Source: Litoreibacter arenae DSM 19593 (GTDB lineage: Bacteria; Pseudomonadota; Alphaproteobacteria; Rhodobacterales; Rhodobacteraceae). From it: a stretch of DNA of 64,000 nt. Made by a program: the position numbers and the translations under genes. Each line of letters begins with the position of its first letter. Position 1 is the stretch's first letter. The notes under the pieces are model-generated. The model did not search any database, was not told the DNA's origin, and saw only the letters and a list, made by a program, of their open reading frames with translations. Positions 5,088 to 45,365 of the stretch are shown here, piece after piece. The stretch spans positions 713,085-777,084 of the forward strand of contig NZ_KE557314.1 in assembly GCF_000442275.2 (NCBI RefSeq), read 5' to 3'.

Positions 5088-7598
5088 CTATTGTGCGGGT
5101 TGAGACGTCATTTTTGTGCGGGTAGCGTCGGGTAATTCCACTTCAGACATCAGCGGTTTTACCCAGCGCAAACGTAAGGCATTGGTCAACACCGAAACCG
5201 AAGAAAGCGCCATGGCACCGGCAGCAAAGACCGGGGACAGGAGCACGCCAAATGCTGGATAAAGGACACCCGCCGCCACCGGAATAAGTGCCGCATTGTA
5301 GCCAAAAGCCCAGATAAGATTTTGGCGGATATTGCGCATCGTCGCGCGGGAAACTTCGATGGCATTGACCACGCCGCGCAAGTCGCCTGACATCAGCACT
5401 ATATCGGCGCTTTCAATGGCCACATCTGTACCGGTACCGATTGCAATGCCCACATCCGCGTGCGCAAGTGCGGGCGCGTCGTTGATGCCATCGCCGACAA
5501 AGGCAATCTGCTGACCCTCCGCACGCAGGCTGTCGAGCGCCGCAACCTTACCCTCTGGCAATACGCCTGCAACGACATGGCCGATCCCCGTCTCGCGGGC
5601 TATGGCTTGTGCGGTCTCTTCCTTGTCACCAGTAATCATCACCACTTTTATTCCCATTTTCCGCAACGCCGTGATCGCCGCAGCACTGGACGGTTTGACC
5701 GGGTCTGCCACGGCGATCACAGCTGCAAGCTTTCCGTCGATAGCGGCATAAAGCGCTGTCCTGCCGCGTTCGGCCAACCTGTGTTCTTCGCCAGCGAGCG
5801 GGTTAATGTCGATCCCTTCGCGCGTCATCAGGCGGTCAGCGCCAACCAGAACTTGGTGACCTTCGATTGTGGCCTCTACGCCGTATCCGGTAATAGAAGT
5901 GAAGGTGTCCGCCACAGCCAGTTTGATACCTTCGGCCTTTGCATTAAGCACGATGGCTTCGGCAATAGGATGTTCCGACTGAGCTTCTACAGATGCGACA
6001 AGGCGCAGAGCTTCAGCCCGAACGACCCCGTCCGCCAGAACGAAATCGGTTAGCGTCGGCTTTCCTTCCGTCACCGTCCCCGTCTTGTCGAGCGCGATCA
6101 CGTCAACATCGCTCAGCCCCTGAAGCGCGTCACCTTTACGAAACAACACGCCCATCTCGGCCGCCCTGCCGGTCCCGACCATGATAGATGTCGGTGTGGC
6201 CAAACCCATGGCGCAAGGACAAGCGATAATCAGGACCGAAACACCAGCAACCAACGCAAAAGTCAACGCGGGATCAGGGCCGACCGTTAGCCAGACAGCT
6301 ACTGTGAGTGCGGCGAGGACCAACACCGCGGGTACGAACCACATGGTAACGCGGTCCACCAGACCTTGAATAGGCAGTTTGGCGCCTTGAGCGTCCTCGA
6401 CCATACGAATGATCTGCGCCAGAGTCGTATCGGCCCCCACCCGCGTTGCGCTGAAAGTCAGGCTGCCTGTTCCGTTCACGGTACCGCCCGTGACTGAATC
6501 ACCTATCACCTTGGCGACCGCCAATGGCTCCCCTGTAATCATGCTCTCGTCTACATTGCTGGTGCCATCGCTTACTTCACCATCAACGGGTATCCGCTCT
6601 CCGGGCCGGACAAGGATTAAGTCGCCTAAGCGCAGCGCATCGATCTGAACTTCCTCAATCTCGCCGTTTCGCATCACGCGAGCAGTTTTGGGCTGCAATC
6701 CTAGAAGTGCTTGAATTGCAGCGCCTGTGCGTCCTTTGGCGCGTGCCTCCAGCCAGCGGCCCAGCAAAATTAGCACAACGATCACCGCTGCCGCTTCGAA
6801 ATAAACTGCGCGAACGCCAGCAGGCAGAAGCCCCGGAAGAAAAGTTGCGACAACCGAATATGTCCAGGCCGCCCCGGTCCCAAGGGCAACAAGGCTGTTC
6901 ATATCCGGCGCACCTTTGACCAAGGCAGGCAGACCTTTCGTGAAAAATTGACGCCCAGGGCCAAACAATACAATCGTGGTCAGCACAAACTGGATCAGCC
7001 ACGACATCTGAGTACCAATCGTGCGCTCTATAATCATGTGAAAGGCGGGAATTGTGTGTGCGCCCATTTCCATGACGAAGACCGGTGCTGTCAGGATTGC
7101 CGCGAAAATCATCCGCCGTCCCTGTGCGCGTGCTTCATCTGCCTTGCGCTCAGCCCGGCTGAGTTGTGCGTCGGCTTCGGCAATGTCGGCGGGATATCCA
7201 GCCGCATTGCTGGCTGCGATCAAAGCCGCCGGTGTCGTTGCGCCCTTTAGGTATTCCACAGTGGCGGTTTCGGATGCCAGATTGACTGATACGTCCAAAA
7301 CTCCCGAAACCGCTGAAAGTGTTTTGCCCACTCGGCCTACACAAGAAGCGCAAGTCATCGAAGCAATATTGAGCGTGACGCGCGCTGTTTGCGCCGGGTA
7401 TCCCAGCTCGACCAACGCGGCCGCGGCAGCCTCTAATGGCTCAGATCCATTCACTTCAAACGACGCCGTTTCTGTTGCCAAATTCACGGAGACGTCCTGC
7501 AGGCCCGGTATGCTGGCCAAGGTGCGATCCACACGACCCACACAGGACGCACAGGTCATTCCCTCAACAGACAGGTTGATCATATTCGAATCAGACAT
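5088..7598 (-). CDS. copA: Cu(I)-exporting P1B-type ATPase CopA
   Basis: 836 aa. Two N-terminal heavy-metal-associated domains each carry M-T-C-A-S-C. The ATPase core shows the TGE loop (MITGEP), A-C-P-C-A-M-G in TM6, D504-K-T-G-T as phosphorylation site, S-E-H-P in the N domain and [13 protein letters not shown]7 carries Y-N and TM8 M-A-L-S-S, the residue set of Cu(I) subclass P1B-1 pumps. It would move Cu(I) from cytoplasm to periplasm. It is divergent from copZ, cotranscribed with cueR, and has a CueR-type promoter. Length and motif order are normal for the family. Confidence 0.96.
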
Positions 7599-7626
7599 CC
7601 GGTAGTTCCTTTAGTTTCTGTCCATG

Positions 7627-7657
7627 TATGTAATGGTTCCAGTTGCTGGAAGCTCAA
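7627..7657 (-). promoter_or_regulatory. CueR-type promoter of copA-cueR
   Basis: Read on the minus strand: TTGAGC (-35, 7657-7652), then a 19-bp spacer containing CTTCC-AGCAACT-GGAAC, then TACATA (-10, 7632-7627). The extended 19-bp spacer with an interrupted dyad is the hallmark of MerR-family promoters. It ends about 30 bp before the copA start. Confidence 0.75.
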
Positions 7658-7691
7658 GAGAATAGTTTTTGACCAAAGATCACTTTCGAAC

Positions 7692-7722
7692 TTGACCTTC
7701 CACCTGCTGGAAGCGCCATTTA
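7692..7722 (+). promoter_or_regulatory. CueR-type promoter of copZ
   Basis: TTGACC (7692-7697) overlaps a near-perfect CueR box ACCTTCC-ACCTGCT-GGAAGC (7695-7714). The -10 would fall at about 7717-7723 (CATTTA/ATTTAT) with 19-20 bp spacing. It lies 35 bp upstream of copA's own box and points the other way, giving two divergent CueR promoters in a 140-bp gap. Confidence 0.75.
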
Positions 7723-7750
7723 TCGATAAGAACTTCCAATGGAGCATCCG

Positions 7751-7945
7751 ATGAAATTTCATGTCCCAAAGATGAGTTGCGGCCACTGTACGGCGGCAAT
7801 TCAAAAAGGAATAAAGGCCAAAGACCCAACAGCAGAAGTTACGACAGAACTTGAAACGCGCAACGTTCTGGTCACAAGCAGGCTTGCGCAGGCCGATGTG
7901 CAACAAGCCATTTTAGATGCTGGCTATGAGGCCACGGCGGCTTAA
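7751..7945 (+). CDS. copZ: CopZ-like copper chaperone (HMA domain)
   Basis: 64 aa, a single heavy-metal-associated domain with M-S-C-G-H-C near the N-terminus (C10, C13) and a ferredoxin-like beta-alpha-beta pattern to the end. A start at 7739 is possible, but GGAG at 7741-7744 is ideally placed for ATG 7751, so the shorter form is preferred. It would carry Cu(I) in the cytoplasm and hand it to the HMA domains of CopA, which is transcribed divergently. It is controlled by the CueR-type promoter at 7692-7722. Confidence 0.88.
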   Translation: MKFHVPKMSCGHCTAAIQKGIKAKDPTAEVTTELETRNVLVTSRLAQADVQQAILDAGYEATAA

Positions 7946-7970
7946 GGCCTTTGTGCTAAACCAGACAGTT

Positions 7971-8690
7971 CTAGTTAGCGGCGCGGGCCTGTTTGACAAG
8001 CTCAATCATCTGATCCGCTTCGATCAGGCCCGGAGCCAGTGCTTCGCCAATGACAAATGACGGCGTCCCGCTGAATCCAAGCGCACGCGCGAGGCGCATC
8101 GATGTCTCGATATGCGCGGCAACCTCTGGCGCGTCCATATCTCGACGCAACTGCGCGATGTCCAGACCCACCTGTTCGGCGGCGCGGATCACAGAGTCTT
8201 CCTCAGCCCGACCATTCAAAGCCATCACTGCCCAATGAAATTCTTCATATTTGTCCTGCGCACGCGACGCCAATGCCGCCCTTGCAGCGAATACTGACCC
8301 CTCGCCGAGAATTGGCCATTCGCGGTACACGACAAGTACGTTGTCATCTGCAGCCAATAGAGCTTCCATATGCGGCTTCACGCGTCTGCAGTACGGGCAG
8401 TTATAGTCAAAGAACTCCACAACCGTGACGTCACCTTCAGGGTTTCCGAGCACGGGCGCATTGGGATCTTGCTCAAGTGCCTCCCTCTGGGTGGAAAGAA
8501 CTTCAGCCGACGCAGCTTCCCTTGCCGCGCTTTCGCGAGCTTCGATGATGCCCACAGCTTCTAGAATGATCTCAGGATTTTCTCGGATGGCTTCAAGAAC
8601 CAATTCCTTGATCCGACCCTTGTCCAGCCCGTCAGCAAGGGCAGACAGTGGCAAAAGTAGCAAAGCGATGCTTGCGAAATGTGTTTTCAT
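7971..8690 (-). CDS. periplasmic DsbA-family thiol oxidoreductase
   Basis: 239 aa with a Sec signal (about residues 1-19, ending A-L-A). An N-terminal helical segment (about 25-75) precedes the thioredoxin-fold core with C98-P-Y-C101 and the cis-Pro loop (G-T-P-S-F). The layout (extra N-terminal helices plus CPYC) resembles ScsC/Com1-type disulfide isomerases, which in Salmonella are linked to copper tolerance. It is the last gene of the minus-strand cytochrome/oxidase operon, 2 nt after the preceding stop. It could protect or repair periplasmic thiols damaged by copper, or assist maturation of the operon's cytochromes. Confidence 0.85.
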   Translation of the reverse strand: MKTHFASIALLLLPLSALADGLDKGRIKELVLEAIRENPEIILEAVGIIEARESAAREAASAEVLSTQREALEQDPNAPVLGNPEGDVTVVEFFDYNCPYCRRVKPHMEALLAADDNVLVVYREWPILGEGSVFAARAALASRAQDKYEEFHWAVMALNGRAEEDSVIRAAEQVGLDIAQLRRDMDAPEVAAHIETSMRLARALGFSGTPSFVIGEALAPGLIEADQMIELVKQARAAN

Positions 8691-8692
8691 GT

Positions 8693-9175
8693 CTATTCCC
8701 CTTGCGAAATGCTTTCAGCGGCTGTGCGCTCTGCTTGATTAGCGCGAACACGGTCAGGCCATGTGGACTTGATGTAAGCGATAATATTCCAAATCTCAGT
8801 GTCACTGAGCTGATCACCGAAACCTGGCATGCCGCTATTAAACTCCATACCCTGCGCCGCCAGCGTCTTTTTTCCACCGAGTTTGGTGTACGTAAAAAGT
8901 AAGCTGTCAGGATGGTGCCAGGTGTGGCCCGTCTCATCATGGGGTGGTGCTTTCAATTGACCATCATCCCCTGGACTCTGCCAATCTTCCTGACCTTCTA
9001 GATTAGCGCCATGACACGACGCACAGCTTTCCAGATACAGCGATTCACCTTCAGCAATGTTGATCGGGAAGTCTGCCACAGTCGGAGGGTTGGCAATCGA
9101 ACTATCCCAGATGAGCGCAGCCCCAACGGCAAAAACCATTATCGCCAGCCCGCCATATACTAAGAAGCGCTTCAT
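8693..9175 (-). CDS. membrane-anchored mono-haem cytochrome c
   Basis: 160 aa. An uncleaved N-terminal helix or signal anchor (about residues 5-23) precedes a class I cytochrome c domain with C51-A-S-C-H55 and a likely axial Met in N-S-G-M-P-G-F-G (M116). It overlaps the multicopper oxidase stop by 4 nt (ATGA), indicating translational coupling. It probably passes electrons to or from the oxidase in the periplasm. The domain call is firm; the partner is inferred from gene order. Confidence 0.87.
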   Translation of the reverse strand: MKRFLVYGGLAIMVFAVGAALIWDSSIANPPTVADFPINIAEGESLYLESCASCHGANLEGQEDWQSPGDDGQLKAPPHDETGHTWHHPDSLLFTYTKLGGKKTLAAQGMEFNSGMPGFGDQLSDTEIWNIIAYIKSTWPDRVRANQAERTAAESISQGE

Positions 9176-33088: not shown

Positions 33089-34279
33089 CTAAGTAGCTGC
33101 ATTTAATTGCTCGGGGGTCGACTTTCCCACGCAATGCGCCGACCAAGCTTTCATAAGGATGCGCCTCTTTTCGAGAAGGTCGGTGCGGCGATAGGCTCGT
33201 TCAACACTACTACCTACCACGTGGCCCAAACAGGTTTCAGCCACGTCGCGAGATACATCGGTTGCCTCAGCACACCATGTTCTAAAACTTGATCGAAAAC
33301 CGTGTGGGCGCGCAGTCATGCCGTTTCTCTCCATAAAGCGGCTCATGGTAGCGTCAGAAATGACACCTCTTCGAACGCTGGGAAACAAATACTTATCACG
33401 TTCGAATTTAGTGGCTTCCTCAATGACTGCCAGAGCTTCCTCAGATAAAGGAACACGGAAATCAGCTGTCGCATACCTCCTCCCTTTCATGGCCTCGCCT
33501 GGGATGGTCCAAACATCCTTCTCGATTTGATCAATGGTCAAGAACCGTAAAGGTCCAGACCGAACCGCAGTAAGAATCAAAAGTCGTAGGGCTAATTGCG
33601 TAATCGTGCCGTCGCTTAGCTCTTGATAGAAGGTGGGAACCTCTTGCCACGACAATGCGGGAACATTTTTGGGCCTGTGCCTCGTCTTACCCAATAAGGC
33701 CTTCGCTTTCTCTACGGCTTGAAGATCGACGATTAAGCCCAGCGCTGCAGCATGCTTTAAACAAATGCCGAGTCGGTTCATAGCTTTACGGGCGGTATCT
33801 GCTTTTGTGTGCCAGATTGGAGCTAGGGTATCTCGAATGTCACGCTGATCAATGTCAGCAACGGGGATCTTGCCGAGTTTGGGAAGAACATGAAGCTGGA
33901 GAGGAGACATCCATCGCCCCGCCTTGCCGTCGCCCCTTAAGTCAGCTTTACGGCTTTCAAATGCGTCTTCCACAATGTCGCGCAACAGGTGAATATCTCT
34001 GGTTGCATCTCGCTTTTCGCGCTCACGCTCCTTTATCGGGTCTAAGCCGCGTTGTACGATTGCTCTATTCGCGGCTGCTTTCGCACGAGCATCTTTGAGG
34101 CTAACCTGTGACAAAGGTCCTAAGCCCATTTCTCTCCGCCTTCCATGAACTGTAACGCGCAGAAACCATTGCGCTCCACCGTCACTGCGCTTGTGTAGCC
34201 AGAGACCCCCACCGTCTGAGTACTTGCCTGGTGCGCTCTTCTTGATCCCTAAAACTGTAAGCTTGTGAATGGCCGCCAT
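33089..34279 (-). CDS. int: tyrosine-type integrase with DUF4102 N-terminus
   Basis: 396 aa from ATG 34279; an upstream ATG at 34348 would add a hydrophobic 23-residue tail and is less likely. The N-terminus has the DUF4102 arm-binding pattern (G-K-Y-S-D-G-G-G-L-W-L), followed by the core-binding domain and a catalytic domain with R in T-A-V-R-S-G, H-G-F-R-S-S-F, G-H-V-V-G-S and the nucleophile region A-Y-R-R-T-D-L-L. All catalytic residues appear present, so it is probably active. Such integrases usually insert at tRNA or tmRNA 3' ends. Confidence 0.92.
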   Translation of the reverse strand: MAAIHKLTVLGIKKSAPGKYSDGGGLWLHKRSDGGAQWFLRVTVHGRRREMGLGPLSQVSLKDARAKAAANRAIVQRGLDPIKEREREKRDATRDIHLLRDIVEDAFESRKADLRGDGKAGRWMSPLQLHVLPKLGKIPVADIDQRDIRDTLAPIWHTKADTARKAMNRLGICLKHAAALGLIVDLQAVEKAKALLGKTRHRPKNVPALSWQEVPTFYQELSDGTITQLALRLLILTAVRSGPLRFLTIDQIEKDVWTIPGEAMKGRRYATADFRVPLSEEALAVIEEATKFERDKYLFPSVRRGVISDATMSRFMERNGMTARPHGFRSSFRTWCAEATDVSRDVAETCLGHVVGSSVERAYRRTDLLEKRRILMKAWSAHCVGKSTPEQLNAAT

Positions 34280-34422
34280 CTCTGTCCACCTTTGTATCCA
34301 CCCACAAATATAGAACAGGAGGAAGCATATTGAAATGCCTTGGAACAACTAAGTAATTGTAAAGATAGAGTTTGAGTGCAAACTAGGTCAGAATGAAACA
34401 GGATGAATAGCCAAAGCAATGC

Positions 34423-34437
34423 CTCTCCTGGGCACCA
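34423..34437 (+). repeat. putative attachment site (tRNA 3'-end-like)
   Basis: CTCTCCTGGGCACCA looks like the end of a T-arm plus a 7-nt acceptor strand, discriminator A and CCA. The rest of a tRNA (the matching GCCCAGG 5' acceptor strand) is not found to its left, so it would be one att copy, with the tRNA gene at the element's other end outside the window. It lies 144 bp upstream of the integrase start. Confidence 0.45.
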
Positions 34438-34670
34438 AAATCAAGCAGAAAACCCGAGAAACTTTGATTTTCTGAGCATCTTTGATTTGCCGCCGACCGA
34501 ACCAGAGGCCCGCATTATGCGGGTGCAGATCTCCGTCAGCCGCCGCCCGTAGTATTTCAGCCTATTGCTTGTGGCCCCGTCGAGCGGTGCCTTTCGATCA
34601 AGACTGTCGATAACAGCGAACGAACCGCGCCTTTGACCTCTTCAATGTCGTCAAGACCGCATCGAAGTCA

Positions 34671-34751
34671 TGTAGGGCCATCCGCGATCTCCCGCACAGT
34701 CTTGTCATCACGCAGCGCTTTCAATGCCACCTGGGCCTTGAACTGATCTGC
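34671..34751 (-). mobile_element. remnant of an IS3-family transposase orfA
   Basis: Minus-strand residues D-Q-F-K-A-Q-V-A-L-K-A-L-R-D-D-K-T-V-R-E-I-A match the start of IS3-family OrfA (F-K-A-x-V-A-L-E-A-L-x-x-x-K-T-V-x-E-I-A). A stop follows before the HTH motif is complete and no OrfB or terminal inverted repeats are seen, so this is a decayed fragment. Confidence 0.65.
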
Positions 34752-34906
34752 CCGCAACGTCGGCAACTCCTCGCAAAAGACACGCGGTTTCGTGGAACCA
34801 CGGCTATACCTTGAGCTATAATTGGCCGATCCCCGCGGTTCTGCACCAGAATCATGCAAAATCGTGCTATGGTTGAGTCAGACTTTCTGGATCTTGGACT
34901 ATTTTC

Positions 34907-37900
34907 ATGGCTGTTCGCCCCACCGGGCAAAGGCCGTCTGTCGGAGCTACCCTAACGACTAACACTGCCACCAATCTGGGTAGTGTTATCGGCACGGGGA
35001 CTCTCACAGGTGTATTCAGGCCGCGCCCGACCGATTTTATAGGCAACATTTTTGAACCGGCTCGACCGGGGACTCCGGTTGTGCGACCGGAAGACCTGCT
35101 GGCGGTCCGGATAGAGCTGCGCAATCTTGACGTCGTCGCAGGCGATCCGCCAATCCTGAAAAAGCGCGGGACAGGCGCGTCGCAACTGATCTTGCATTTC
35201 CCGCCGCAAGCCATCACCGAAGAGGCCTTCTTCCAGACCAACCCCACCGGCGTCACCGGACCTGATGTTGACGACACGATAGAATTGCAAAAGCCCGACC
35301 CCGACGCAGGCCAGACAAGCGGCGACACCCTGCCGCCTTTCGGGGGCCGGACGATCCGCGCCCGGATCGCGGATGAGTCCCGTCTGGTGTTCGACGTCCC
35401 GAACGACCTGGAGATTCCCTATACACTCGAAGGGGTGCTGGCGGCGGTTCAGGATCTCGACCTGAAAGTCGCCGACAACGCCCGACCCCGGTTCATTGTC
35501 GGCAAGATATTCAGCGTCAAGGACCTGCTCTCCGACACCGCCCTGTCGCGCGTTACGACGACGAAGCGGGCGTCCTTGGCAAGCTTTGCCGCCAACAGCC
35601 TGCGCATTTCAAAATCTTCCACCGGCGCCGCGACACTCTACATGCGGCAGCGCTCGGGCGGTGTAGGCCTGCTGGAGACCGGCCGCGTGAAGCCGCGGTT
35701 CAAACTGCCCGGTCTGCTGCGCACGAAACCCAGCCCCAAGCCGCCCGCTGCCAACACCACCGCCATTGAAATCCCGTGGCGGTTGATCCTGTCGCCGCAC
35801 AAAAGCACCCGCTGGCGTCACTCAACCACCGCCATGACCTCCGCCGCGACCACCCATACCGAGTTGTGGCATTCGCGTCTGGTGTCGCCCAACTCACAAG
35901 GCGACGCGATCGAGCCGCCCTATCCAGACCCCAGCCGGACGGTGCGCGCGATTTGGGCCAAGACCGGTGAAGGCTCCACGCCGGAGGCCATTGCCGCCGC
36001 CAAGGACCGCAGCCCCGATTTCGAGAATGTCGATCCCAGTCAAAAGCCCTTCCGCATGGCGATGGACGATTTCGACCGCACGCAGATCTCCCACCTGTCA
36101 TCCAACTTCTCCATCAGCGGCCACACGCCCGATCCCGTCAACACCAACCTGATGATGATGTCGGCGCTTGGCGGCTGGCTAGACAGCCGCGGCGCGTGGA
36201 TGCCCCCGGGCGGTTTCTCGGTCGAGGAATGGGCGCACCGCGCCAGCATGGGTCGCGACCATTTCGTGCGGGTCGTCTACAAGGGCTTCCTGTTCCCGTT
36301 CGGCCATCAGGTGTCGCTGGTGAAGGTCACCGAACGCAAGTTCCACAACGGTGCGCTATCGGACCCCAAGCCGGGTTTTCCCAACGGCATTCCGCAGATC
36401 GACCAACTGCCCGGAAACCCCGCCTATATGCGCCAGCGCATGTTCATCGTCATCCGCGAAAAGACGCGCGTTTATGGCACCGACACCCTGCGCAGCTTCG
36501 ACGGCAAGGTGGATTTGAACCTGCAATTCCCCTTCTCGACCGTCACCATCCTGACCGAAGCCACGCCCAATCTCGATGACCCGAACGATTCCGAAATAGA
36601 GGCCGACAAGGGGCAGAAATTCTTCTGGCCCATGGTCAACGAAAAGCACTTCAAGTTCCAATGCGTCGCCACCGACATGGATGACCGCAAGGTCGCGTTC
36701 GAGTTGCCGATGATCTTCATGGACAACACCTTCGCCGCTCCCTTCCTGCCCGCAAGCGGCAGTCTCGACCGGCGGCCAAACTTTGCGAACGCGCGGGCGA
36801 ACGCGGTCAAGGCGGCCGATGCCTTCGCGGCCTCCGGCAACCTCAGAACCGCCGATATGAAGCTGCAACGCGTGGCCCTCGCGGCCAGCATGAAGGCGGG
36901 CGACACCTCGGTGCAGGTCGAGACGATGGATTTCGGCGGCTTCGCGGAACTGGTCAACCCAGACCTAGACGCCGCCAGCGACGATCTCAGACATCCGCCC
37001 TTTTACCCCATGGTCACCGGGCTCGACGCCCGCATCGGGGCGATGACGCATCTCAGCGGGTCCACCGCTCCCAACCGTCTGGAATGGCACCCGTTCTACC
37101 TGAAAAACGGCTTCGATCAGGCCGGGGAGGTGTTCGCCAACGTGGTGCCCGCATCCGGCATGGCGAAGCTCGATTTCTCGGCGCAGGGCGACCGGTCCGG
37201 CGGGTTCGTGCAGCCCAATATCGTGCCCAAGGCCCTATCCCGCCTGTCAGGGCCCGTGACGGCGGAGCCGGATCAATTCATCAACGGCGTCATAGACCCC
37301 GGCGGTGGGTTTCCGGACCTGCCAGGCGACATCCCCCTGCCGCTCATCTTCGGGTGCATCCCGCTTAACGCCATCATCGACGCCGTTACGGGGCTGGCGG
37401 ACAAGCCCGAAAAGGCCCCGAAATTCGCTACCGAAGCCAGCACCCAGCTGGAAAGCTTCATCAACGGGCTGGTGCGCCTGCTGGGCTTCGTCACGGAAGG
37501 TGCCGCGCAACCGGCGAACATCGCCAACGCCGCGCTGACCGCTTTCACCGCCACGCTCGATGATTACATCCAGCAGGCGCTTGGGCTGACGGCCGCGCAG
37601 GCGACCGAGATCGAGGACAAGCTCGATGACCTCAAGGCCGAGCTTGCCAATGTCGTGGCCGATCTTGCCACACTTCTGAACAAGGCAATCGACGCCGCGC
37701 CCACCGATCCCGGTCTGGCCAACCTTCCCTCCAGCCTGAACGATGCCCGCGCCGCTGTGGATGACCTGCGCAATGCGGCCAATGCGCAGATCGCAGGCGT
37801 ATCGCTACCCGCCGGTTTGCGGCAGACGATCCTAACAACCGCCCAGCAACTGGACATATTCCTCGACGATCTGGCGCAACTGCCCGTCGTCGTGACGCAG

Positions 37901-39208
37901 GCCCGCGCACTGTTTGATGCGCTCGACGCCATCGTTGGCGCACCAGAGGCGTTCGAGGCGCTGCTCTCGGACCCCGACCAGTTGCGCGACCTCGTCGTAG
38001 AGGTTGGCGACAAAATCGACGATCTCGGCACCACGCTCGCCGGGTTCAATTTGATGGAGGGCGCCCCGCGCAAGGCGATCACCGACGCCATGTCGGCCGT
38101 CACTCAGGCCATCGGCATCGCCGACGATCTGCTGAACCTGATCGAGCAGTTGACCGGCGACGAGTTGACCATCCGCTTTGACTGGACCCCCGAAATCAGC
38201 TCTTTCCCAAGTGGCCCGCATCCGATTTTCCGCGTCAACGACAAACGTGGCTTTTCGCTGGCGGTGGAGGCGAAAGTCAAAAAGCATGGCGACACCACAC
38301 CCAAAATCAGCGTCGTTTGCGGGCTGAAACATTTCGACCTCGTGCTGATCGGCGAGGCCGCGTTTCTGGAATTGCTGTTCGAGAAGATCGAATTCAGCAT
38401 CGACAGCGCCGCCAAAATGGATGTGGACGTTGTCTTCAACGATATCAAATTCGTCGGCCCCCTCAGCTTTGTCGAGGTGCTGCGCGACCTGATCCCGCTG
38501 GACGGCTTCAGCGATCCGCCGTTTCTGGACATCACACCGCAAGGGATCGACGCGGGCTTTTCCGTCGCCCTGCCCAGCGTCAATATCGGCGTGCTCGGTC
38601 TGGCCAATCTCAGCCTTGGCGCGGGCTTCACCGTGCCGTTCATCGGCCAGCCGCTCTCCGTGCGCTTCAACTTCTGCACCCGCGAGCAGCCATTCGTGCT
38701 GACGGTCTACATGTTCGGCGGCGGCGGCTTCTTCGGCGTCACCATCGACCCCAATGGCGTGCAGATACTTGAGGCGTCCTTCGAGTTCGGAGCCAGCATT
38801 TCCATTGACCTCGGCGTCGCTTCGGGCGGCGTGTCGGTGATGGCGGGCATCTATTTCCGGATGGAGCAGGACGCGGTGTCGTTGACCGGCTACTTCCGGC
38901 TGGCAGGCCATGTCGATGTGCTCGGCATCATCACCGCCTCGCTGGAGCTGTATCTGGAACTGCGATACGAGTTTGAAACCGGCAAATGCGTCGGCAAGGC
39001 CGAACTGACGATAGAGATTTCGGTATTCATCTTCTCCGGCAGCGTCACGATTTCCTGCGAGCGCAAATTCGCAGGCTCCAACGGCGATCCCAACCTGCGG
39101 CAGATGCTGGGCCTCAATCCCGCGCTCCCGCTCGCCGATGAGCTGGACCAGATCGACGGCCCCGATGTCGATTATGCATGGCGCGAACATTGCGAGGCCT
39201 TCGCATGA
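34907..39208 (+). CDS. giant protein A (1433 aa), unknown function
   Basis: No signal peptide, membrane helix or catalytic motif is recognised. Residues 1-280 are Pro/Thr-rich and beta-like; around 300-330 is a distinctive R-W-R-H-S-T-T-A ... H-T-E-L-W-H-S-R-L segment. Residues about 400-720 continue as a large mixed domain. Residues about 845-1085 are almost wholly helical with heptad-like repeats (I-E-D-K-L-D-D-L-K-A-E-L). Residues about 1085-1400 are beta-rich with alternating polar and hydrophobic residues and an F-G-G-G-G-F-F-G loop (about 1268-1275). It is GC-rich, has a weak SD, and its stop overlaps the start of giant protein B. Together they look like a two-component structural or secreted assembly; that is inference. 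Confidence 0.8.
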   Translation: MAVRPTGQRPSVGATLTTNTATNLGSVIGTGTLTGVFRPRPTDFIGNIFEPARPGTPVVRPEDLLAVRIELRNLDVVAGDPPILKKRGTGASQLILHFPPQAITEEAFFQTNPTGVTGPDVDDTIELQKPDPDAGQTSGDTLPPFGGRTIRARIADESRLVFDVPNDLEIPYTLEGVLAAVQDLDLKVADNARPRFIVGKIFSVKDLLSDTALSRVTTTKRASLASFAANSLRISKSSTGAATLYMRQRSGGVGLLETGRVKPRFKLPGLLRTKPSPKPPAANTTAIEIPWRLILSPHKSTRWRHSTTAMTSAATTHTELWHSRLVSPNSQGDAIEPPYPDPSRTVRAIWAKTGEGSTPEAIAAAKDRSPDFENVDPSQKPFRMAMDDFDRTQISHLSSNFSISGHTPDPVNTNLMMMSALGGWLDSRGAWMPPGGFSVEEWAHRASMGRDHFVRVVYKGFLFPFGHQVSLVKVTERKFHNGALSDPKPGFPNGIPQIDQLPGNPAYMRQRMFIVIREKTRVYGTDTLRSFDGKVDLNLQFPFSTVTILTEATPNLDDPNDSEIEADKGQKFFWPMVNEKHFKFQCVATDMDDRKVAFELPMIFMDNTFAAPFLPASGSLDRRPNFANARANAVKAADAFAASGNLRTADMKLQRVALAASMKAGDTSVQVETMDFGGFAELVNPDLDAASDDLRHPPFYPMVTGLDARIGAMTHLSGSTAPNRLEWHPFYLKNGFDQAGEVFANVVPASGMAKLDFSAQGDRSGGFVQPNIVPKALSRLSGPVTAEPDQFINGVIDPGGGFPDLPGDIPLPLIFGCIPLNAIIDAVTGLADKPEKAPKFATEASTQLESFINGLVRLLGFVTEGAAQPANIANAALTAFTATLDDYIQQALGLTAAQATEIEDKLDDLKAELANVVADLATLLNKAIDAAPTDPGLANLPSSLNDARAAVDDLRNAANAQIAGVSLPAGLRQTILTTAQQLDIFLDDLAQLPVVVTQARALFDALDAIVGAPEAFEALLSDPDQLRDLVVEVGDKIDDLGTTLAGFNLMEGAPRKAITDAMSAVTQAIGIADDLLNLIEQLTGDELTIRFDWTPEISSFPSGPHPIFRVNDKRGFSLAVEAKVKKHGDTTPKISVVCGLKHFDLVLIGEAAFLELLFEKIEFSIDSAAKMDVDVVFNDIKFVGPLSFVEVLRDLIPLDGFSDPPFLDITPQGIDAGFSVALPSVNIGVLGLANLSLGAGFTVPFIGQPLSVRFNFCTREQPFVLTVYMFGGGGFFGVTIDPNGVQILEASFEFGASISIDLGVASGGVSVMAGIYFRMEQDAVSLTGYFRLAGHVDVLGIITASLELYLELRYEFETGKCVGKAELTIEISVFIFSGSVTISCERKFAGSNGDPNLRQMLGLNPALPLADELDQIDGPDVDYAWREHCEAFA

Positions 39209-42200
39209 CAAAACAAACCCTCCTCTGGACAGTTGTGCCGCACGGGCGCGTGCCGAAAGGCGAAGACGGCGAGGGCCGCCTGCGTGTCTCCGCCGTCGTC
39301 TCGCCGCGCCTCACGCCGGAAACCGCCGCCGAACAGTCCCTCGCTGCCTTCCCCGATTTTCTCGACTGGCCCGCATTGCTTGAACAGGCGGAATTCGCCC
39401 TGCGCATCGGCGGCCAGACGCTGAAACTGCGGCCGCTGGGCAAGCCCGACAGCGGGCTGTGGCGGAAGCTGCTGACCGACACGACGCCCGTGGCGGGGTT
39501 CGAGTTCAAGGACATGAGCGCCGTCAACCTGCATTCCTTCGCCGTCAAACACATGCTCGGCACGCTGCGCAAACATTACGGACGGCTGGCGGTGCAGGCG
39601 GCGTCCAACCACCCGACGCTGTTACCTTGGGAGGACGCACACCCCGACCTCAAGGATATGCTCGACGACCTTGGCACCAAGACCATCAAATACACCTTCG
39701 GCGACCGCGAAATAGAAGTCCCCCTGCCCGGCTTTTCGCGCTTTTACGACGACGAGCGATCCGTCGGGGAACGCCTGACTGCGCAGGTCTTCGGCCCCAG
39801 AAGTGTCTACCGGACCGATATACCCGCCATCGACGCCAAGGACGGCCAGCTTCCCCCCAAAGGCGGCACGTTCCGTCGCCGCGTCATGTCGCCGGACTGG
39901 TATAACCCCCGCCCCTCCGGCCCCGGCGGCACGCTGCTCGCCGCCCCTGATGCAGCGCTGATGGACCAGTTCTCAAGTCAGGCCGAATATACCTTGTATC
40001 AGGCCGACAGCTTCTACCGCCGCGAACCGGCTACCATGGCGCAGAAGGCCATGCGCTTTCCCACCTACCAGAACGTGCCGCCCCCGCCGCCGATCCCGGA
40101 ATATGATTTCCACCGCATCCTCGCCTCCTATGGCAGCTACCCGCCCCTGCAACGCGCCCTCGGGCTGGTGATTGATTTTGTGGTCGAAGGCCAGACACCC
40201 GACCCCGGCGCGGGCCAGATCAACGGCAACATGGCGCTGGTGGTCAAATGGCAAAACGGGCGTGACGACAGCGACGACGCCTACCCCGCAACGGCATGGC
40301 AGCTAGACCGCGAGCGGTTCGTCGCCCGTCCCCGCGGCGATGATCTGACCCGCGGGCTGCTCCGGCTGGAAAACAGCGATGACAGTTGGGGCCAGCAGGA
40401 CAAGGAGGAAGGCCTGTTCGACATCTATCAGGTGGACCCCGACGGAGGCGCGCTCAAGACGGTGGGCTTTACGCTGACCGCGCAGAACCTTGTCGCCAAA
40501 AGCCTCGATCTTGCGCGCCCTGACGGGCAGGTGACCTACACCACCGGCGACCGCCAGCCCGTGGCCGCCCTGCGCTCCGGCGGTTTGGGTATCTCGCGCC
40601 ACGGGCGCGCGCAGCAGGTCGCCGATGACGCTGCTGCGGCGCAGTTGAAAAATCAGGCCATCGCGGGCGGCAACGGCAAGAATGTCGTATTCTTCGCCGA
40701 GGATCTGTTTCGCGGCTACCGCGTCGACGTGGCGGCGGTCGCCCCGCCGTGGGATACGGCGGTCGAGGTGAAGCCGGAGGATTGGCGCACCCTGTGCGCC
40801 CGCCACGGCACCTATAAGCTGATCGACAGCGGCGACACGCTCGACTTCGGGGTTGACGAAGGTCACGTCGCAGGCCCGTCCGCGTCAAGCGGCACCAGTG
40901 CCGGGGTGAACCCCGACGACTACTATCTGCACGAATCCCTCTTCCGCTGGACGGGCTGGAGCCTGTCTGCCCCCCGCCCCGGCAAGACCATCCGCGCCGC
41001 GAAGGTGGACGGCACCGAATTGCAGGGCGAAATGCCCGCCGACATCAGCGACGTGGGCGAAAAGGGCAACGGGCTGGCGGTGACCTACAAGGTGCCAAAA
41101 GGCAGCCTGCCCAAGCTGCGATTCGGGCAGCATTACCGCCTTCGCGCGCGCTATGTGGATGTGGCGGGCAACAGTCTGGCGCTTGACGACCCGACACTGG
41201 ACCCGTTGGAGCAGGCGACGGACGTGGTCGGCTACTGGCGGTTCGAGCCGGTCGATCCTCCCGCAATCATGGGCCGGAACAAGCTCAGCGAAGGCGAGTC
41301 GCTGGAGCGTATGGTGATCCGCTCCGACTACGATCAGACGCCGGAAACCTACGTGAAAACGCCGCAGTTCACCGCCGCGATCATCGAGCCCGCGCTGTCG
41401 GATTTCGAATACACCGCGTTGAATGAACGCCACCTCGTGCCGCCCAAATCCGCGCAGCAGCAATGCGAAACCCACGGGCTGTTCGATCCGTATTTCGCGC
41501 AGTGGGACAACATCAAGACGGGCTACGAGATTGCCGCCCGCGAGGATGGTACCCTGTTCGACGAAATCCCCGGTGCCACCGTAGAGATCGTCACGCCCAC
41601 CTCCGTCAAAAATGTCGCCCAAACCCAGAACGCGCCGCCCGCACTCCCCACGCCCGAAAACCCCGTGGGCGACCGGCTGGTGGGCGGGCAGTATGTCATT
41701 CACCGCGAGGCGAAGCTGGTGACGCCCTACCTGCCCGACGGGGCGGCCGCAGGCATCGCCATCCGCGCGCTGCCCGGTGAAACCATCCCCGGCGTCACCG
41801 GCCCCGGCACCATCGGGACGGGCTGCGAAGTGGTCGAGGCGCCCAATTCCGAGCTGGTCATAATGCTGCCCCATCAGGGCGAATGGCCCGACATGCAGGG
41901 CTTCCGCATCGTTCTGGCCGAACGCGAGGCGGACTTGACCGAGCTTCCATGCGCCGAAAAGTTCACCAATGACGGCGCGCCGCACTGGAACCCCGACGAC
42001 CGTGTGCTGACGCTGTTCCTTGCCAAGGGCCGCATCGCCCGGTTGCGCTATGCCAGCTTCATCGACAAGTCGATGATCGGCGATTTCGGGCTCTTGAACT
42101 GGGCGCCTCAGGCGGGTCGGGTCTTTGTCGCGGAAATGGCAATGCTGGGCTGTCATTGGATGCTGACGCCGTTCCGCACGCTGACGCTGGTGCATGCGAC

Positions 42201-43887
42201 CCAGCATCCCGTATGCCTGCCGGAGATGATAGAGACCTCCATCGGGCGGGCGGCGGGCGACCAGTTTGCCGACGTCCGGTGCAGGCAGATCAGGTTGCAC
42301 GGGCCTTCCACCGGAAAGTTTGAAATCATCGCCGAGTGGCATGAATGGGTCGACGACATCAACCGGCCGAAGCCCACGCGCGAACATCGCAAGGGCCAGC
42401 TTGGTGAAATCCATCTGCCCGAAAACCATCCCCACGACGTCAATCTTTTTGCCGCCATGGCCGCGCAAATCGTCGACCCCGCGCGACCTCGCCCGCCCCC
42501 CAACCGGCACGAATTTGGCGACAGCAAGTTCCGGCTGGTCCAATACCGCCTGCAAGCCACCACCCGCTTTCGCGAATATCTGCCGCCGCCGATCTATGCC
42601 GACCCCGATCTGGTGACCCGCATCGGACCGGTGACCGAAGGGCCCGCCATGACCACCGGCGCGGATGACGACATGGGCGCGCCCGTGCTGCGCGACCCGG
42701 CTGGGACGACCGACCATTCGCTGATCCCCGCCAGCGTCGCACCGGATGATCCGCGCGTGCTCTACGTAGTGCCGACCTTCCGCTGGACGCGCACCAAAAA
42801 GGTGGGCGGCGTGGACGTCACCCGTCTTGGCAACGGGTTGCGCGTGTGGCTGGACCGTCCGTGGTTTTCATCCGGCGACGGGGAGTTGCTGGGCGTCGTC
42901 CTGCTCTCGGAGAACGGCCCGTTCACGGCGATCCCCGACAAGATGCAGACCTCGGTTACGCAATGGGGGTTGGACCCGATGTGGGACACGGTCCTGCCCA
43001 AGCACCGCACCAAAGCCAGCGATTTCCCCGCCCATGTCATCAGCGAAGATATCCGGTTACAAGAGTTCCCGACCGAGGCGCCGGTCGCCATCGTCGGCCA
43101 TCGCGTCCACTGGGACGACACCCGGGCCCTGTGGTATTGCGACATAGAGTTGAATCCGGGTGGGACCTACATGCCGTTCGTCCGGCTCGCCCTTGTGCGC
43201 TATCAGCCCAATGCGATGAACGGCATCAAAATCTCCAAGGTCGCCACCGCCGAGTTCGCGCAGGTCCTGCCCCGCCGCCGCGCGGTCATGTCGGTGAAAG
43301 ATGGCAAGGTCTCGGTCAGGGTGCATGGCAACGTGCCGGTGGGTGGCCCGCTGAATTACAAAGTCGATTCGCCCTATCTCAACGTGTCCTTTCGCGATGA
43401 TCCCAAAGACACGGGACGCAACCGGTTCGAACTGGTCCTGCAATCACGCGATCCCGCGATCGACAGTGACCTCGCGTGGGAGGATACCAAGCTGCTCGAC
43501 AGCGCAATCGTCGGCGGGGCGTCGGGGGGCATTGTGGTCACGCCAGGCCCTGGCACGGTGGGCGTGTTCCGCCGCGGCGCGCGGCCCGCGCCCGTGACGC
43601 GCACGGTCAGTACCCGCGGAGGCGGGCGACAGCGGCTGGAGGCGGTGATCGAACGGCAAACCGGAGCAATCACCTCGGTCACGCAGATCAGTGACCCTGC
43701 CATCTGGAACGTGACCGCGGACCTCGACCAGCCCGGCGGGCGGCCTACACGGCTGATGCTGCGGGAATTCGAACGCTACTACACCGACCGGTCCGGCAAC
43801 CACAAGCGGGACAGACAGATATTCCAGAAGCGCTTTGTGGAAGAACGATTGGTCTATGCAAGCGTCTTCAACATTCCCAAATCCTGA
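39205..43887 (+). CDS. giant protein B (1560 aa), unknown function
   Basis: Chosen ATG 39205 overlaps the stop of giant protein A (ATGA), so the two are translationally coupled; a start at 39178 would overlap more. No signal peptide or TM segment is evident. Features include a poly-Pro stretch (P-P-P-P-P-I-P, about residues 291-297), a beta-sandwich-like strand pattern near 640 (H-Y-R-L-R-A-R-Y-V-D-V-A-G-N-S), an A-E-W-H-E-W motif (about 1043-1048), and a C-terminal segment rich in aromatic and charged residues (F-E-R-Y-Y-T-D-R-S-G). No enzymatic family is recognised. Size and pairing suggest large extracellular or phage-tail-like architecture, but nothing in the sequence proves it. Confidence 0.8.
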   Translation: MTKQTLLWTVVPHGRVPKGEDGEGRLRVSAVVSPRLTPETAAEQSLAAFPDFLDWPALLEQAEFALRIGGQTLKLRPLGKPDSGLWRKLLTDTTPVAGFEFKDMSAVNLHSFAVKHMLGTLRKHYGRLAVQAASNHPTLLPWEDAHPDLKDMLDDLGTKTIKYTFGDREIEVPLPGFSRFYDDERSVGERLTAQVFGPRSVYRTDIPAIDAKDGQLPPKGGTFRRRVMSPDWYNPRPSGPGGTLLAAPDAALMDQFSSQAEYTLYQADSFYRREPATMAQKAMRFPTYQNVPPPPPIPEYDFHRILASYGSYPPLQRALGLVIDFVVEGQTPDPGAGQINGNMALVVKWQNGRDDSDDAYPATAWQLDRERFVARPRGDDLTRGLLRLENSDDSWGQQDKEEGLFDIYQVDPDGGALKTVGFTLTAQNLVAKSLDLARPDGQVTYTTGDRQPVAALRSGGLGISRHGRAQQVADDAAAAQLKNQAIAGGNGKNVVFFAEDLFRGYRVDVAAVAPPWDTAVEVKPEDWRTLCARHGTYKLIDSGDTLDFGVDEGHVAGPSASSGTSAGVNPDDYYLHESLFRWTGWSLSAPRPGKTIRAAKVDGTELQGEMPADISDVGEKGNGLAVTYKVPKGSLPKLRFGQHYRLRARYVDVAGNSLALDDPTLDPLEQATDVVGYWRFEPVDPPAIMGRNKLSEGESLERMVIRSDYDQTPETYVKTPQFTAAIIEPALSDFEYTALNERHLVPPKSAQQQCETHGLFDPYFAQWDNIKTGYEIAAREDGTLFDEIPGATVEIVTPTSVKNVAQTQNAPPALPTPENPVGDRLVGGQYVIHREAKLVTPYLPDGAAAGIAIRALPGETIPGVTGPGTIGTGCEVVEAPNSELVIMLPHQGEWPDMQGFRIVLAEREADLTELPCAEKFTNDGAPHWNPDDRVLTLFLAKGRIARLRYASFIDKSMIGDFGLLNWAPQAGRVFVAEMAMLGCHWMLTPFRTLTLVHATQHPVCLPEMIETSIGRAAGDQFADVRCRQIRLHGPSTGKFEIIAEWHEWVDDINRPKPTREHRKGQLGEIHLPENHPHDVNLFAAMAAQIVDPARPRPPPNRHEFGDSKFRLVQYRLQATTRFREYLPPPIYADPDLVTRIGPVTEGPAMTTGADDDMGAPVLRDPAGTTDHSLIPASVAPDDPRVLYVVPTFRWTRTKKVGGVDVTRLGNGLRVWLDRPWFSSGDGELLGVVLLSENGPFTAIPDKMQTSVTQWGLDPMWDTVLPKHRTKASDFPAHVISEDIRLQEFPTEAPVAIVGHRVHWDDTRALWYCDIELNPGGTYMPFVRLALVRYQPNAMNGIKISKVATAEFAQVLPRRRAVMSVKDGKVSVRVHGNVPVGGPLNYKVDSPYLNVSFRDDPKDTGRNRFELVLQSRDPAIDSDLAWEDTKLLDSAIVGGASGGIVVTPGPGTVGVFRRGARPAPVTRTVSTRGGGRQRLEAVIERQTGAITSVTQISDPAIWNVTADLDQPGGRPTRLMLREFERYYTDRSGNHKRDRQIFQKRFVEERLVYASVFNIPKS

Positions 43888-44303
43888 AGCCCTGCGATCT
43901 GAAGCATGCTGGCGGCCTTGCCTTGCCGCACATGTCAGCCGGGTCTCGCCATCGAACAAATGCTCAGCAGTTTGCAGCACGACGGAGCCGCAAGCTTTCT
44001 TCAGTCATCTGGACTGCCTCTGCTCCAAGTGCCGGGAATGTGGGAAATTATTCAGACTGGCGGAAATCGCGGGTCCTCAACCGGTGTTTCTCTCCTGTGC
44101 ACCGATTGAATTCACTTACGTAGCTTCCAACTTACGTCGACTTGGCGTCATGACCCAGACTTAGTCGCCAAACCGCGCGAGGTCCGACACTTATTCTGTC
44201 GTTGTTTTGTGACCTTAGGGGTGTACTAATCACATTGGGAGGACCGTGCGCTGGCCGCTGGGGTGTCAGCGCTGAGACGTGTCCACTATGATTGGAGACT
44301 ATG
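43888..44303. other. intergenic region between giant-protein operon and ABC operon
   Basis: Apart from the doubtful 67-codon ORF at 43906, no gene is seen. The right third probably holds the promoter of the ABC operon; no strong sigma70-like element or operator stands out by eye. Confidence 0.5.
43906..44109 (+). CDS. possible small Cys-containing protein after giant protein B
   Basis: 67 codons starting 18 nt after the giant protein B stop, with TGAAGC as a weak SD. The peptide begins M-L-A-A-L-P-C-R-T-C-Q-P-G and has a C-x2-C, and its codon use is not clearly coding. Two other ORFs overlap the same stretch in other frames. It could be a third member of the giant-protein operon or noise. 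Confidence 0.25.
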   Translation: MLAALPCRTCQPGLAIEQMLSSLQHDGAASFLQSSGLPLLQVPGMWEIIQTGGNRGSSTGVSLLCTD

Positions 44304-45365
44304 ATGAATACCAAACTGATCCTATCGACCGTCGCTGCGATGACCTTGTCGTCGGTTGCGGCACAAGCGGACACGCTGCGGCTGCTGACATGGGGCGGCT
44401 ACGCGCCGGAAGACGTCATCGCCAAGTTCGAGGCCGAAACCGGCCACACTGTCGAAGTGACGAAATCCAACAACGAGGAAATGATCGCCAAACTGCGCGC
44501 GACCAATGGCGGCGGGTTCGACCTTGCCCAGCCTAGCCAGGACCGGATCGCCGGACCACAGGCCGAATTCGGCATCTACAAGCCGCTGGACATGTCCAAG
44601 ATCGACACAAGCCTGTTCATCCCCTCCATGCTGGAGGCCACCAAGGGGAACACAACCGTTGACGGCGAGGTCTACGCCGTGCCGCATGTCTGGGGCACAT
44701 CCGGTCTGGTCGTGAACACCGCGCAGGCAGGCGATGTGAAGGACTACACCGACCTGTGCAACGACTCCGTCGCGGGCAAGGTGTCCTACCGCCTCAAGCG
44801 CCCGACCCTGATCGGGTTTGCCTACTCTATGGGTCTGGACCCGTTCGCAGCCTATGGCGACGAGGCGGCCTATAAAGACATCCTCGATCAGGTCGAAGCC
44901 AAGCTGGTCGAGTGCAAGTCCAACGTGAAAACCTACTGGGACGGCGGTGACGAGTTGAAAAACCTGCTCCGCTCCGGCGAGGTCGTGGCGTCGATGGCAT
45001 GGGATACCGGCGGCTGGCAGTTGAACGACGACAACGCCGACATCACTTTCGTCGCGCCTGAATCCGGCGCTTTGGGCTGGATCGACACCTTTGCGCTGCC
45101 CGCACGCGGCAGGTCTGATGATGTGGCCTATGCGTGGATCAACTTCGTGATGCAGCCGGAGGTCGCGGCCATGATCACGAGCGCTGCTGGCAACTTCACC
45201 GCCTCGCAAGGTGGGGATGCAAATGTGGATGATGCGTTGAAGGCCAAGTATCAGGCCAGCTTCCCGCAAGAAGCAATCGACAACATCAAGTGGTATCCCT
45301 CGGTGCCCGCCGGACTTGAGGCGCTGGAAGGCGCTGCGTTGGACCGGATCAACGCCGCCAACTAA
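44304..45365 (+). CDS. PotD-like periplasmic substrate-binding protein
   Basis: 353 aa; ATG 44304 has GGAG six bases upstream (ATG 44301 and TTG 44292 are alternatives). A Sec signal (cleavage near A-A-Q-A) is followed by the spermidine/putrescine-binding fold: L-R-L-L-T-W-G-G-Y-A, V-P-H-V-W-G-T-S-G-L, M-A-W-D-T-G-G-W and W-Y-P-S-V-P-A-G-L-E-A-L-E. It binds a polyamine-like or other small organic substrate in the periplasm and feeds the permeases downstream. A strong terminator follows it, as is typical where the binding protein is needed in excess. Confidence 0.9.
   Translation: MNTKLILSTVAAMTLSSVAAQADTLRLLTWGGYAPEDVIAKFEAETGHTVEVTKSNNEEMIAKLRATNGGGFDLAQPSQDRIAGPQAEFGIYKPLDMSKIDTSLFIPSMLEATKGNTTVDGEVYAVPHVWGTSGLVVNTAQAGDVKDYTDLCNDSVAGKVSYRLKRPTLIGFAYSMGLDPFAAYGDEAAYKDILDQVEAKLVECKSNVKTYWDGGDELKNLLRSGEVVASMAWDTGGWQLNDDNADITFVAPESGALGWIDTFALPARGRSDDVAYAWINFVMQPEVAAMITSAAGNFTASQGGDANVDDALKAKYQASFPQEAIDNIKWYPSVPAGLEALEGAALDRINAAN

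Follow-up and report, generated by a model that had tools for sequence, protein, structure and literature searches.

Genes A and B in the window

The window analysed here, a 64,000-nucleotide stretch of the Litoreibacter arenae DSM 19593 genome, carries on its + strand two very large genes, termed A and B, that together fill about 9 kb (34907–43887). A sequence-only reading of this DNA had described them as open reading frames (ORFs) of 1433 and 1560 codons joined by an ATGA overlap, and this arrangement was confirmed with the B start placed at 39205. The pair is composed of the following features:

34907–39208, + strand: gene A, first of the pair, 1433 amino acids (aa); homologous pairs occur elsewhere
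35066–35491, + strand: N-terminal beta domain of A, residues ~54–195, with FPPQ and ESR motifs (alignments A1/A7 and the model of homologue L078)
35759–37306, + strand: conserved beta core of A, residues ~285–800, with GRDH, FGH, TERKF and LRQR motifs (alignment and L078 model)
37424–38155, + strand: helical insert of A, residues ~840–1083 (anchored span lengths across homologues)
38156–39076, + strand: C-terminal amphipathic beta meander of A with one apolar face, residues ~1084–1390 (L078 model and strand composition)
39205–43887, + strand: gene B, 1560 aa; its start overlaps the A stop as ATGA

The longest B frame opens at 39178 and spans 1569 aa. We placed the start at the ATG at 39205 (1560 aa) instead, because the conserved N-terminus of the homologues, M-x-x-Q-T-x-x-W-T-V, begins there. 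At the other end of A, most rows of alignment A7 stay conserved up to the final residues; this alignment combines the window with 72 of 79 eligible A ORFs (four plasmid rows and three near-duplicate Achromobacter rows were excluded). The corresponding B alignment, A8, holds the window and 63 of 71 eligible B ORFs, after exclusion of five plasmid rows and of L036, L048 and L087, whose frames were uncertain.

Several properties read from the window alone also held. In 2-kb windows, GC content is 62–66% inside the pair, in line with the high GC ascribed to both ORFs, against 58–63% to the right and 48–58% to the left; the pair is thus closer to its right flank than to the lower-GC left flank. In a 19-residue Kyte–Doolittle scan, A and B of the window showed no transmembrane-like segment and no N-terminal signal, as had been proposed, with maximal means of 1.83 for A (internal, at residue 809) and 1.23 for B. 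The helical hydrophobic moment bears out the helical region of A, as do the helical bundles matched by the A profile. The beta-rich C-terminus of A and the poly-Pro stretch of B (NVPPPPPIPEYD) are likewise present in the sequence.

To the left of the pair, a tyrosine integrase gene (33089–34348) closes the lower-GC stretch; the right flank holds genes for ABC-transporter components (a solute-binding protein, an ATPase and a permease) and an iron-type alcohol dehydrogenase gene. The left stretch (1–34348) encodes a heavy-metal P-type ATPase, an amino-acid permease, a fusion of an ABC1-kinase-like protein with an ATC_hydrolase domain and, at its end, the integrase; it may be an integrated island with its right border next to A. 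In the gap that separates the integrase gene from A, a remnant at 34541–34808 on the − strand reads DQFKAQVALKALRDDKTVREIA on the reverse strand, followed by a stop; judged by its motif, it resembles the beginning of OrfA of an IS3-type transposase. No tRNA gene was found within the window, and terminator-like and promoter-like sites in 34300–44400 did not exceed their counts in shuffled sequences.

Distribution and pairing across bacteria

The A–B pair is widespread across bacterial groups yet patchy. Among genomes of the same family, A was found in 1 of 149 (the window's own); among genomes of the same class, full-length A was found in 2 of 387, with B adjacent to it in both and in no others, and four further genomes gave only partial A matches (in the C-terminal part of A for two genomes, in its helical part for the other two). 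Of 72,556 plasmid records, 15 contained A and 11 contained B; the homologues of Cupriavidus metallidurans CH34 share about 48–50% identity with the window's proteins. At E ≤ 1e-5, neither gene had a match in a set of 50,697 phage records. With A as the query, viral contigs yielded a single match, L090, on which a B is also present; with B as the query they yielded none. Two A motifs, used to search species genomes, returned 199 A relatives, of which 80 were kept. By title or taxonomy, the loci are labelled Pseudomonadota, Actinomycetota, Acidobacteriota, Aminicenantota, Bacteroidota, Chlorobiota, Ignavibacteriota, Balneolota, Armatimonadota and Thermodesulfobacteriota, in addition to one metagenome-assembled genome (MAG) fragment labelled Bacillota; since many loci come from MAGs, single phylum assignments may be wrong. 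The presence of homologous pairs in the same order in many phyla indicates that the pair in the window is not a chance arrangement.

The strict pairing of A and B that had been proposed from the window was upheld across the family. A B frame starts within 4 kb behind A on the same strand in 86 of the 87 loci with downstream sequence (kept, plasmid and viral-contig loci, counting the broken copies L003 and L064; two more of the 89 loci, L050 and L069, end at A). In the sole exception, L088, an unrelated 572-aa frame follows A and the contig ends 2.5 kb past A; the same genome holds two B loci elsewhere, one of which (L098) adjoins an A C-terminus. The genome of L069 likewise contains a B preceded by an A C-terminus (L101). 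Among the A-bearing genomes known to us, only that of L050 gave no B; it is a MAG, and its A runs off the end of the contig. Among plasmid relatives, an A-like gene is followed by a B-like gene in L102, L103, L105 and L107, while L104 comprises A pieces only and L106 one B piece only. Broken copies were searched piecewise (L003, with A in two frames; L064; the A pieces of L104; the B piece of L106; and L007, with B in two ORFs).

In the 62 loci with a motif-placed B start, the median gap between A and B is 25 bp, and the gap lies between −40 and 60 in 55 of them. It is negative in only one, so the family as a whole does not share the ATGA overlap: B of the homologues mostly starts 0–60 bases behind A. 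The few very large gaps are, we think, misplaced starts. Distances between A proteins and between B proteins were strongly correlated over 61 loci (r = 0.976; the best of 1,000 permutations reached 0.31), and FastTree phylogenies of the two genes for these 61 shared loci had 39 of 58 splits in common, with two well-supported conflicts, both among deep-branching rows. The two trees are largely congruent. Co-inheritance of neighbouring genes also raises such a correlation without any contact between A and B.

The trees also group Nitrosovibrio, a betaproteobacterium, with Sphingopyxis, and nest Achromobacter near Phyllobacterium, groupings that we read as likely horizontal transfer. Distant forms with a twin-arginine (Tat) motif on A occur on alphaproteobacterial plasmids (L007, L008, L009, L102, L103 and L107), and all of these except L107 encode long A proteins of 2277–3311 aa. 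In Achromobacter pulmonis (L051), extra A-like pieces at 5220–8993 lie upstream of a complete A and are perhaps a tandem duplication. On the complete chromosome of Pseudoxanthomonas sp. NC8 (L064), A and B are both split into many overlapping frames, which would reflect either indel-rich sequence or decay.

No constant third gene accompanies the pair. There were 142 first neighbours within 1.5 kb; 98 passed filters that dropped 17 loci (mostly close relatives), distances above 900 bases and sizes outside 90–1100 aa, and 89 of these 98 were scanned. Among the first 25 of the 151 Pfam families listed, none occurred in more than three of the 89 immediate neighbours, the most frequent being RCC1 repeats, patatin (three of the 89) and MarR. 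On this count a functional partner gene was rejected, and the two genes themselves look like the unit. Other neighbours were seen at single loci: dpdE/dpdF of the Dpd genes adjoin L007, conjugation genes lie near L008, and a type IIG-like methylase gene lies near L103. These genes, like the phospholipase genes below, are hints at most. A defence system was considered and rejected, as A and B have no PADLOC match and the Dpd and methylase genes lie nearby in two loci only.

Five deep-branching loci (L047, L052, L065, L076 and L083) have secreted-looking proteins beside the pair. One family with the motif PPPNQLxxxDxWxxxLxN comprises proteins of 717, 948 and 645 aa in L047, L052 and L065, respectively, and shorter frames in L076 and L083, and shows RCC1 repeats in L047; a second family of 618–666 aa is found in L047, L052, L076 and L083.

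These distributions bear on one alternative, that A and B form a two-component factor that attacks the membranes of other cells by pore formation or delivery, with B binding and A inserting strands. Patchy occurrence, carriage on plasmids and the likely transfer between alpha- and betaproteobacteria would suit such a factor. So would the phospholipase genes near some loci: a patatin-like gene adjoins B in L003, a phmmer search with it found relatives only in L016 (beside B) and L040 (about 5 kb upstream and not among the 89 scanned neighbours), and a zinc-dependent phospholipase C gene lies upstream of the pair in L009. The 89 neighbours include no constant third gene that could serve for immunity or delivery, however, and we consider this alternative unlikely, also in view of the family searches, strand counts and Tat motifs described below.

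Family comparisons and predicted folds

Neither A nor B matched Pfam, NCBIfam, PADLOC or PDB sequences at E ≤ 1, in agreement with the absence of any recognizable domain noted from the window. PHROGs returned chance-level matches to A alone (best E of 0.095). When the A profile (73 rows) was compared with PDB sequences, 161 matches were obtained at E ≤ 1 (best E of 1.6e-4), but the best 60 all fell in positions 739–994, that is, in the helical insert and its edges. The matches listed for this part include designed bundles, apolipoproteins, spikes and others, and we read them as compositional. The B profile (64 rows) had no match among PDB sequences. A PADLOC scan of the long A homologue L009 gave coil-type matches only (E of 0.007 and 0.02), and none for its B. 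Homology between A and B themselves was rejected at a profile–profile probability of 0.2%. Tc-type and other large toxins are set apart solely by the absence of Pfam and NCBIfam matches of A and B. A literature search, with most subscription papers and all preprints outside its reach, returned no paper on the A–B family within the parts of the literature it covered.

DUF6603 (PF20248) was considered as a possible relative. Like A and B, it occurs in very large frames (1565–3518 aa in the seven matches seen, L091–L097), is patchy (7 of 249 genomes) and, judged from its consensus, has a Gly-rich, beta-looking domain. In contrast, hhalign comparison with A gave non-significant probabilities of 3.1% and 2.5% (over 30 and 38 columns), there was no profile–profile match with B and no match in the genome of the window, and the Pfam scan of A and B contained no family at E ≤ 1. 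Kinship was thus rejected. Within the same literature limits (subscription papers mostly and preprints all outside), no paper naming this domain was found.

Structures were predicted for homologues, A as L078 (1112 aa, complete) and B as residues 1–1200 of the 1249-aa L082. The L078 model has a mean pLDDT of 78 and a pTM of 0.69; its core (~230–670) is mostly above 90, residues 1–59 and short stretches are below 50, and the C-terminal part is mostly at 67–86 with dips. It shows a beta core and, towards the C-terminus, an up-and-down beta meander of which one face is apolar; the chain ends in a helix rather than in a barrel strand. The L082 model (pLDDT 86, pTM 0.71) is a chain of beta-sandwich-like domains, consistent with the beta-sandwich-like stretches earlier suspected in B.

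In Foldseek searches against the PDB, the best matches of B among the 50 listed were complement C3 and alpha-2-macroglobulin-type chains, with E of about 1e-5 and TM-scores of 0.06–0.21, the latter being the maximum among the 50. The likeness lies in the chains of beta-sandwiches; given these scores and no Pfam family in B at E ≤ 1, it is generic. For A, the 50 listed matches were mainly beta-barrels (LptD, SlpA, porins, ushers and a TOC-complex chain), with E from 2e-4 and TM-scores of at most 0.30; the lipid carrier MTP ranked 8, and SlpA and the S-layer deinoxanthin-binding complex ranked 4, 6 and 12. A library of viral structures gave low-scoring matches to tail fibres and outer-membrane-like proteins. 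The structural comparison stands with the sequence and profile searches in assigning neither A nor B to a characterized family, as the sequence-only reading had held; every listed match is low in TM-score, and we claim a fold class alone, without an assigned fold or homology. The apparent novelty of the pair comes from failed family comparisons of this kind rather than from a demonstrated mechanism.

The barrel matches raise the possibility of a surface or extracellular scaffold, adhesin-like or S-layer-like, in which a B stalk of beta-sandwiches would stand on a base formed by A, the helical spacer and a barrel being arranged much as SlpA-type proteins have them. The SlpA and deinoxanthin-complex matches, the likeness of B to strings of beta-sandwiches and the secreted-looking proteins beside some deep-branching loci agree with it. 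A also shares up-and-down amphipathic strands with outer-membrane beta-barrels, but differs from them in its low TM-scores, its helical C-terminus, the lack of a clear Sec signal and its occurrence, with the same amphipathic C-terminus, in Actinomycetota. As no clear Sec signal was found, the usual route of outer-membrane insertion is not evident, and we regard a scaffold as improbable.

Invariant residues raise another alternative, in which B (or A) is an enzyme whose substrate is hydrophobic or polymeric, with the partner serving as its carrier. Across 64 sequences, B has 41 invariant columns that include His, Asp, Arg and Trp, and genes for lipases and oxidoreductases occasionally lie nearby. 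These residues are, however, scattered along the whole chain and mixed with Gly and Pro as in structural motifs, no known catalytic domain was matched, and the 89 scanned neighbours include no constant metabolic gene; we give an enzymatic role only a small chance.

The helical insert of A, which the modelled L078 mostly lacks, varies in length between homologues. Its anchored span is 60–115 aa in 21 rows, 188–223 aa in 12 and 296–312 aa in 40 (305 aa in the window), with no lengths between these classes across the 73 rows, although the 60–115-aa class is broad. The classes partly follow clades. In the long plasmid forms L007–L009, a wider anchored span reaches 1025–1159 aa, compared with 422 aa in the window. 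The insert looks like a spacer that changes length in steps. Class-specific lengths would also suit a tail-like or phage-derived structure with a tape-measure-like A, as would the weak PHROGs matches of A to tail proteins (E of 0.11 and 0.71). Against this, the phage records gave no match, viral contigs gave only L090, and no tail family was seen among the window neighbours or the listed families of the neighbour tally. On these grounds a phage or tail origin was rejected as very improbable and largely refuted, and the phage-tail and chance-ORF readings are excluded, or nearly so.

The C-terminal meander of A is two-faced. Ten consecutive strands of 5–19 residues were measured, the last eight of which are linked by seven loops of 2–4 residues. 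Over 73 rows, the apolar face consists of 94% ILVMFC plus GA and 2.2% charged residues, compared with 30% charged and 33% STNQH on the opposite, polar face. The apolar face of A in the window alone has 95.5% ILVMFC plus GA and 1.5% charged residues, and that of eight actinobacterial rows 93% and 3.6%. As a control, N-terminal strands of A were put through the same procedure and proved less amphipathic (54% ILVMFC and 12% charged residues on the apolar face); because the more hydrophobic face was picked for each strand in both sets, it is the contrast rather than the absolute value that counts. Actinomycetota as a rule have one membrane and no outer membrane. Since they share the apolar sheet, an outer-membrane barrel is not a general explanation for it.

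The alternation of apolar and polar strand faces, together with the barrel-type matches, could be taken to favour the membrane-attacking factor introduced above. Classical pore formers contribute one or two hairpins per subunit, unlike the ten or more contiguous amphipathic strands per chain found here, and A and B have no family match other than the chance-level PHROGs hits.

Tat motifs and a candidate assembly

Tat motifs, defined as (S/T)RR and a following uncharged stretch within the first 140 residues, are present in 25 of 89 A proteins and in none of 86 B proteins, compared with a mean of 0.42 and a maximum of 2 in shuffled sequences. A stricter criterion gave 22 of 90 A (one of them, L013, false) and 0 of 87 B. 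By label, the motif is found in Acidobacteriota (3/3), Aminicenantes/Aminicenantota (7/7), Armatimonadota (2/2), Balneolota (2/2), Ignavibacteriota (1/1) and 'uncultured bacterium' (2/2), in plasmid loci (4/8), in Bacteroidota (1/3), Chlorobiota (1/2), Actinomycetota (1/9) and Pseudomonadota (1/47), and not in Thermodesulfobacteriota (0/1), Bacillota (0/1) or the viral contig (0/1). It is also present on A of the plasmid relatives L102, L103 and L107, and absent from A of the window; the sequence-only reading had missed this contrast with the homologues. In S. meliloti LMB1, B is followed by a tatA-type gene. With 46 of 47 Pseudomonadota-labelled A proteins lacking the motif as well, export is not a general rule, a distribution that also speaks against the membrane-attacking factor.

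Of 90 A frames, 18 were flagged by a crude scan for hydrophobic stretches near the N-terminus; no B was. Six of these are the Tat stretch itself (L006, L047, L052, L069, L077 and L083); the others are frame extensions before the likely start (for example, L002, L015 and L044), mild, or rich in Pro and Val. Judged by reading, none of the 18 contains a clear Sec signal; a few A homologues may carry one.

Export of folded complexes through Tat with the signal on one partner is known (PMC4273604 and PMC10924467). PaoABC is an example of such hitchhiker complexes, with the motif on one partner and the other co-encoded (PMC4273604). A and B resemble it at the motif level, with Tat motifs in one subunit only, although A of the window has none. 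They differ from PaoABC, an oxidoreductase, in the absence of any cofactor domain found, in their far larger subunits and in the many clades without a Tat motif.

From the close spacing, shared history and predicted folds of the two proteins, we infer a physical complex. A tight operon would supply A and B as the obligate subunits of a single large assembly, in line with the sequence-only reading. B is a chain of beta-sandwich-like domains; in A, the beta core is followed by the helical stretch, which would act as a spacer, and by the antiparallel meander at the C-terminus. An apolar face of this kind must be buried, which points to a barrel or groove, or to membrane insertion. It may hold a lipid or other greasy ligand or insert into a membrane, and B would cover or present it. 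A large beta domain of the usual kind might also have such a meander as its core. In Tat-bearing clades, the assembly would fold in the cytoplasm and leave as one unit, with the signal-less B as a hitchhiker. In the clade of the window, where no signal is present, it would be cytoplasmic or leave by another route. Taken whole, this reading of A–B as one heteromeric assembly with an apolar sheet, linked to lipids or membranes and Tat-exported where signalled, is quite possible in our judgement, if still tentative. A more specific version, in which A–B is a giant soluble particle that carries lipids or inserts into membranes, with an apolar sheet and ruler-like helices from A, a shell of B beta-sandwiches and, in several phyla, Tat export of the folded whole of several thousand residues with B as a passenger, we hold to be doubtful.

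A 9-kb gene pair whose loci carry labels of ten phyla, and which is missing from the domain libraries searched, represents a large piece of unread bacterial biology. Concrete, testable predictions follow from the stepped insert lengths and from the division of clades into those with Tat motifs and those lacking them. If the Tat reading is true, a folded complex this large would probe the upper limit of what Tat can export and how far the hitchhiker mechanism reaches.
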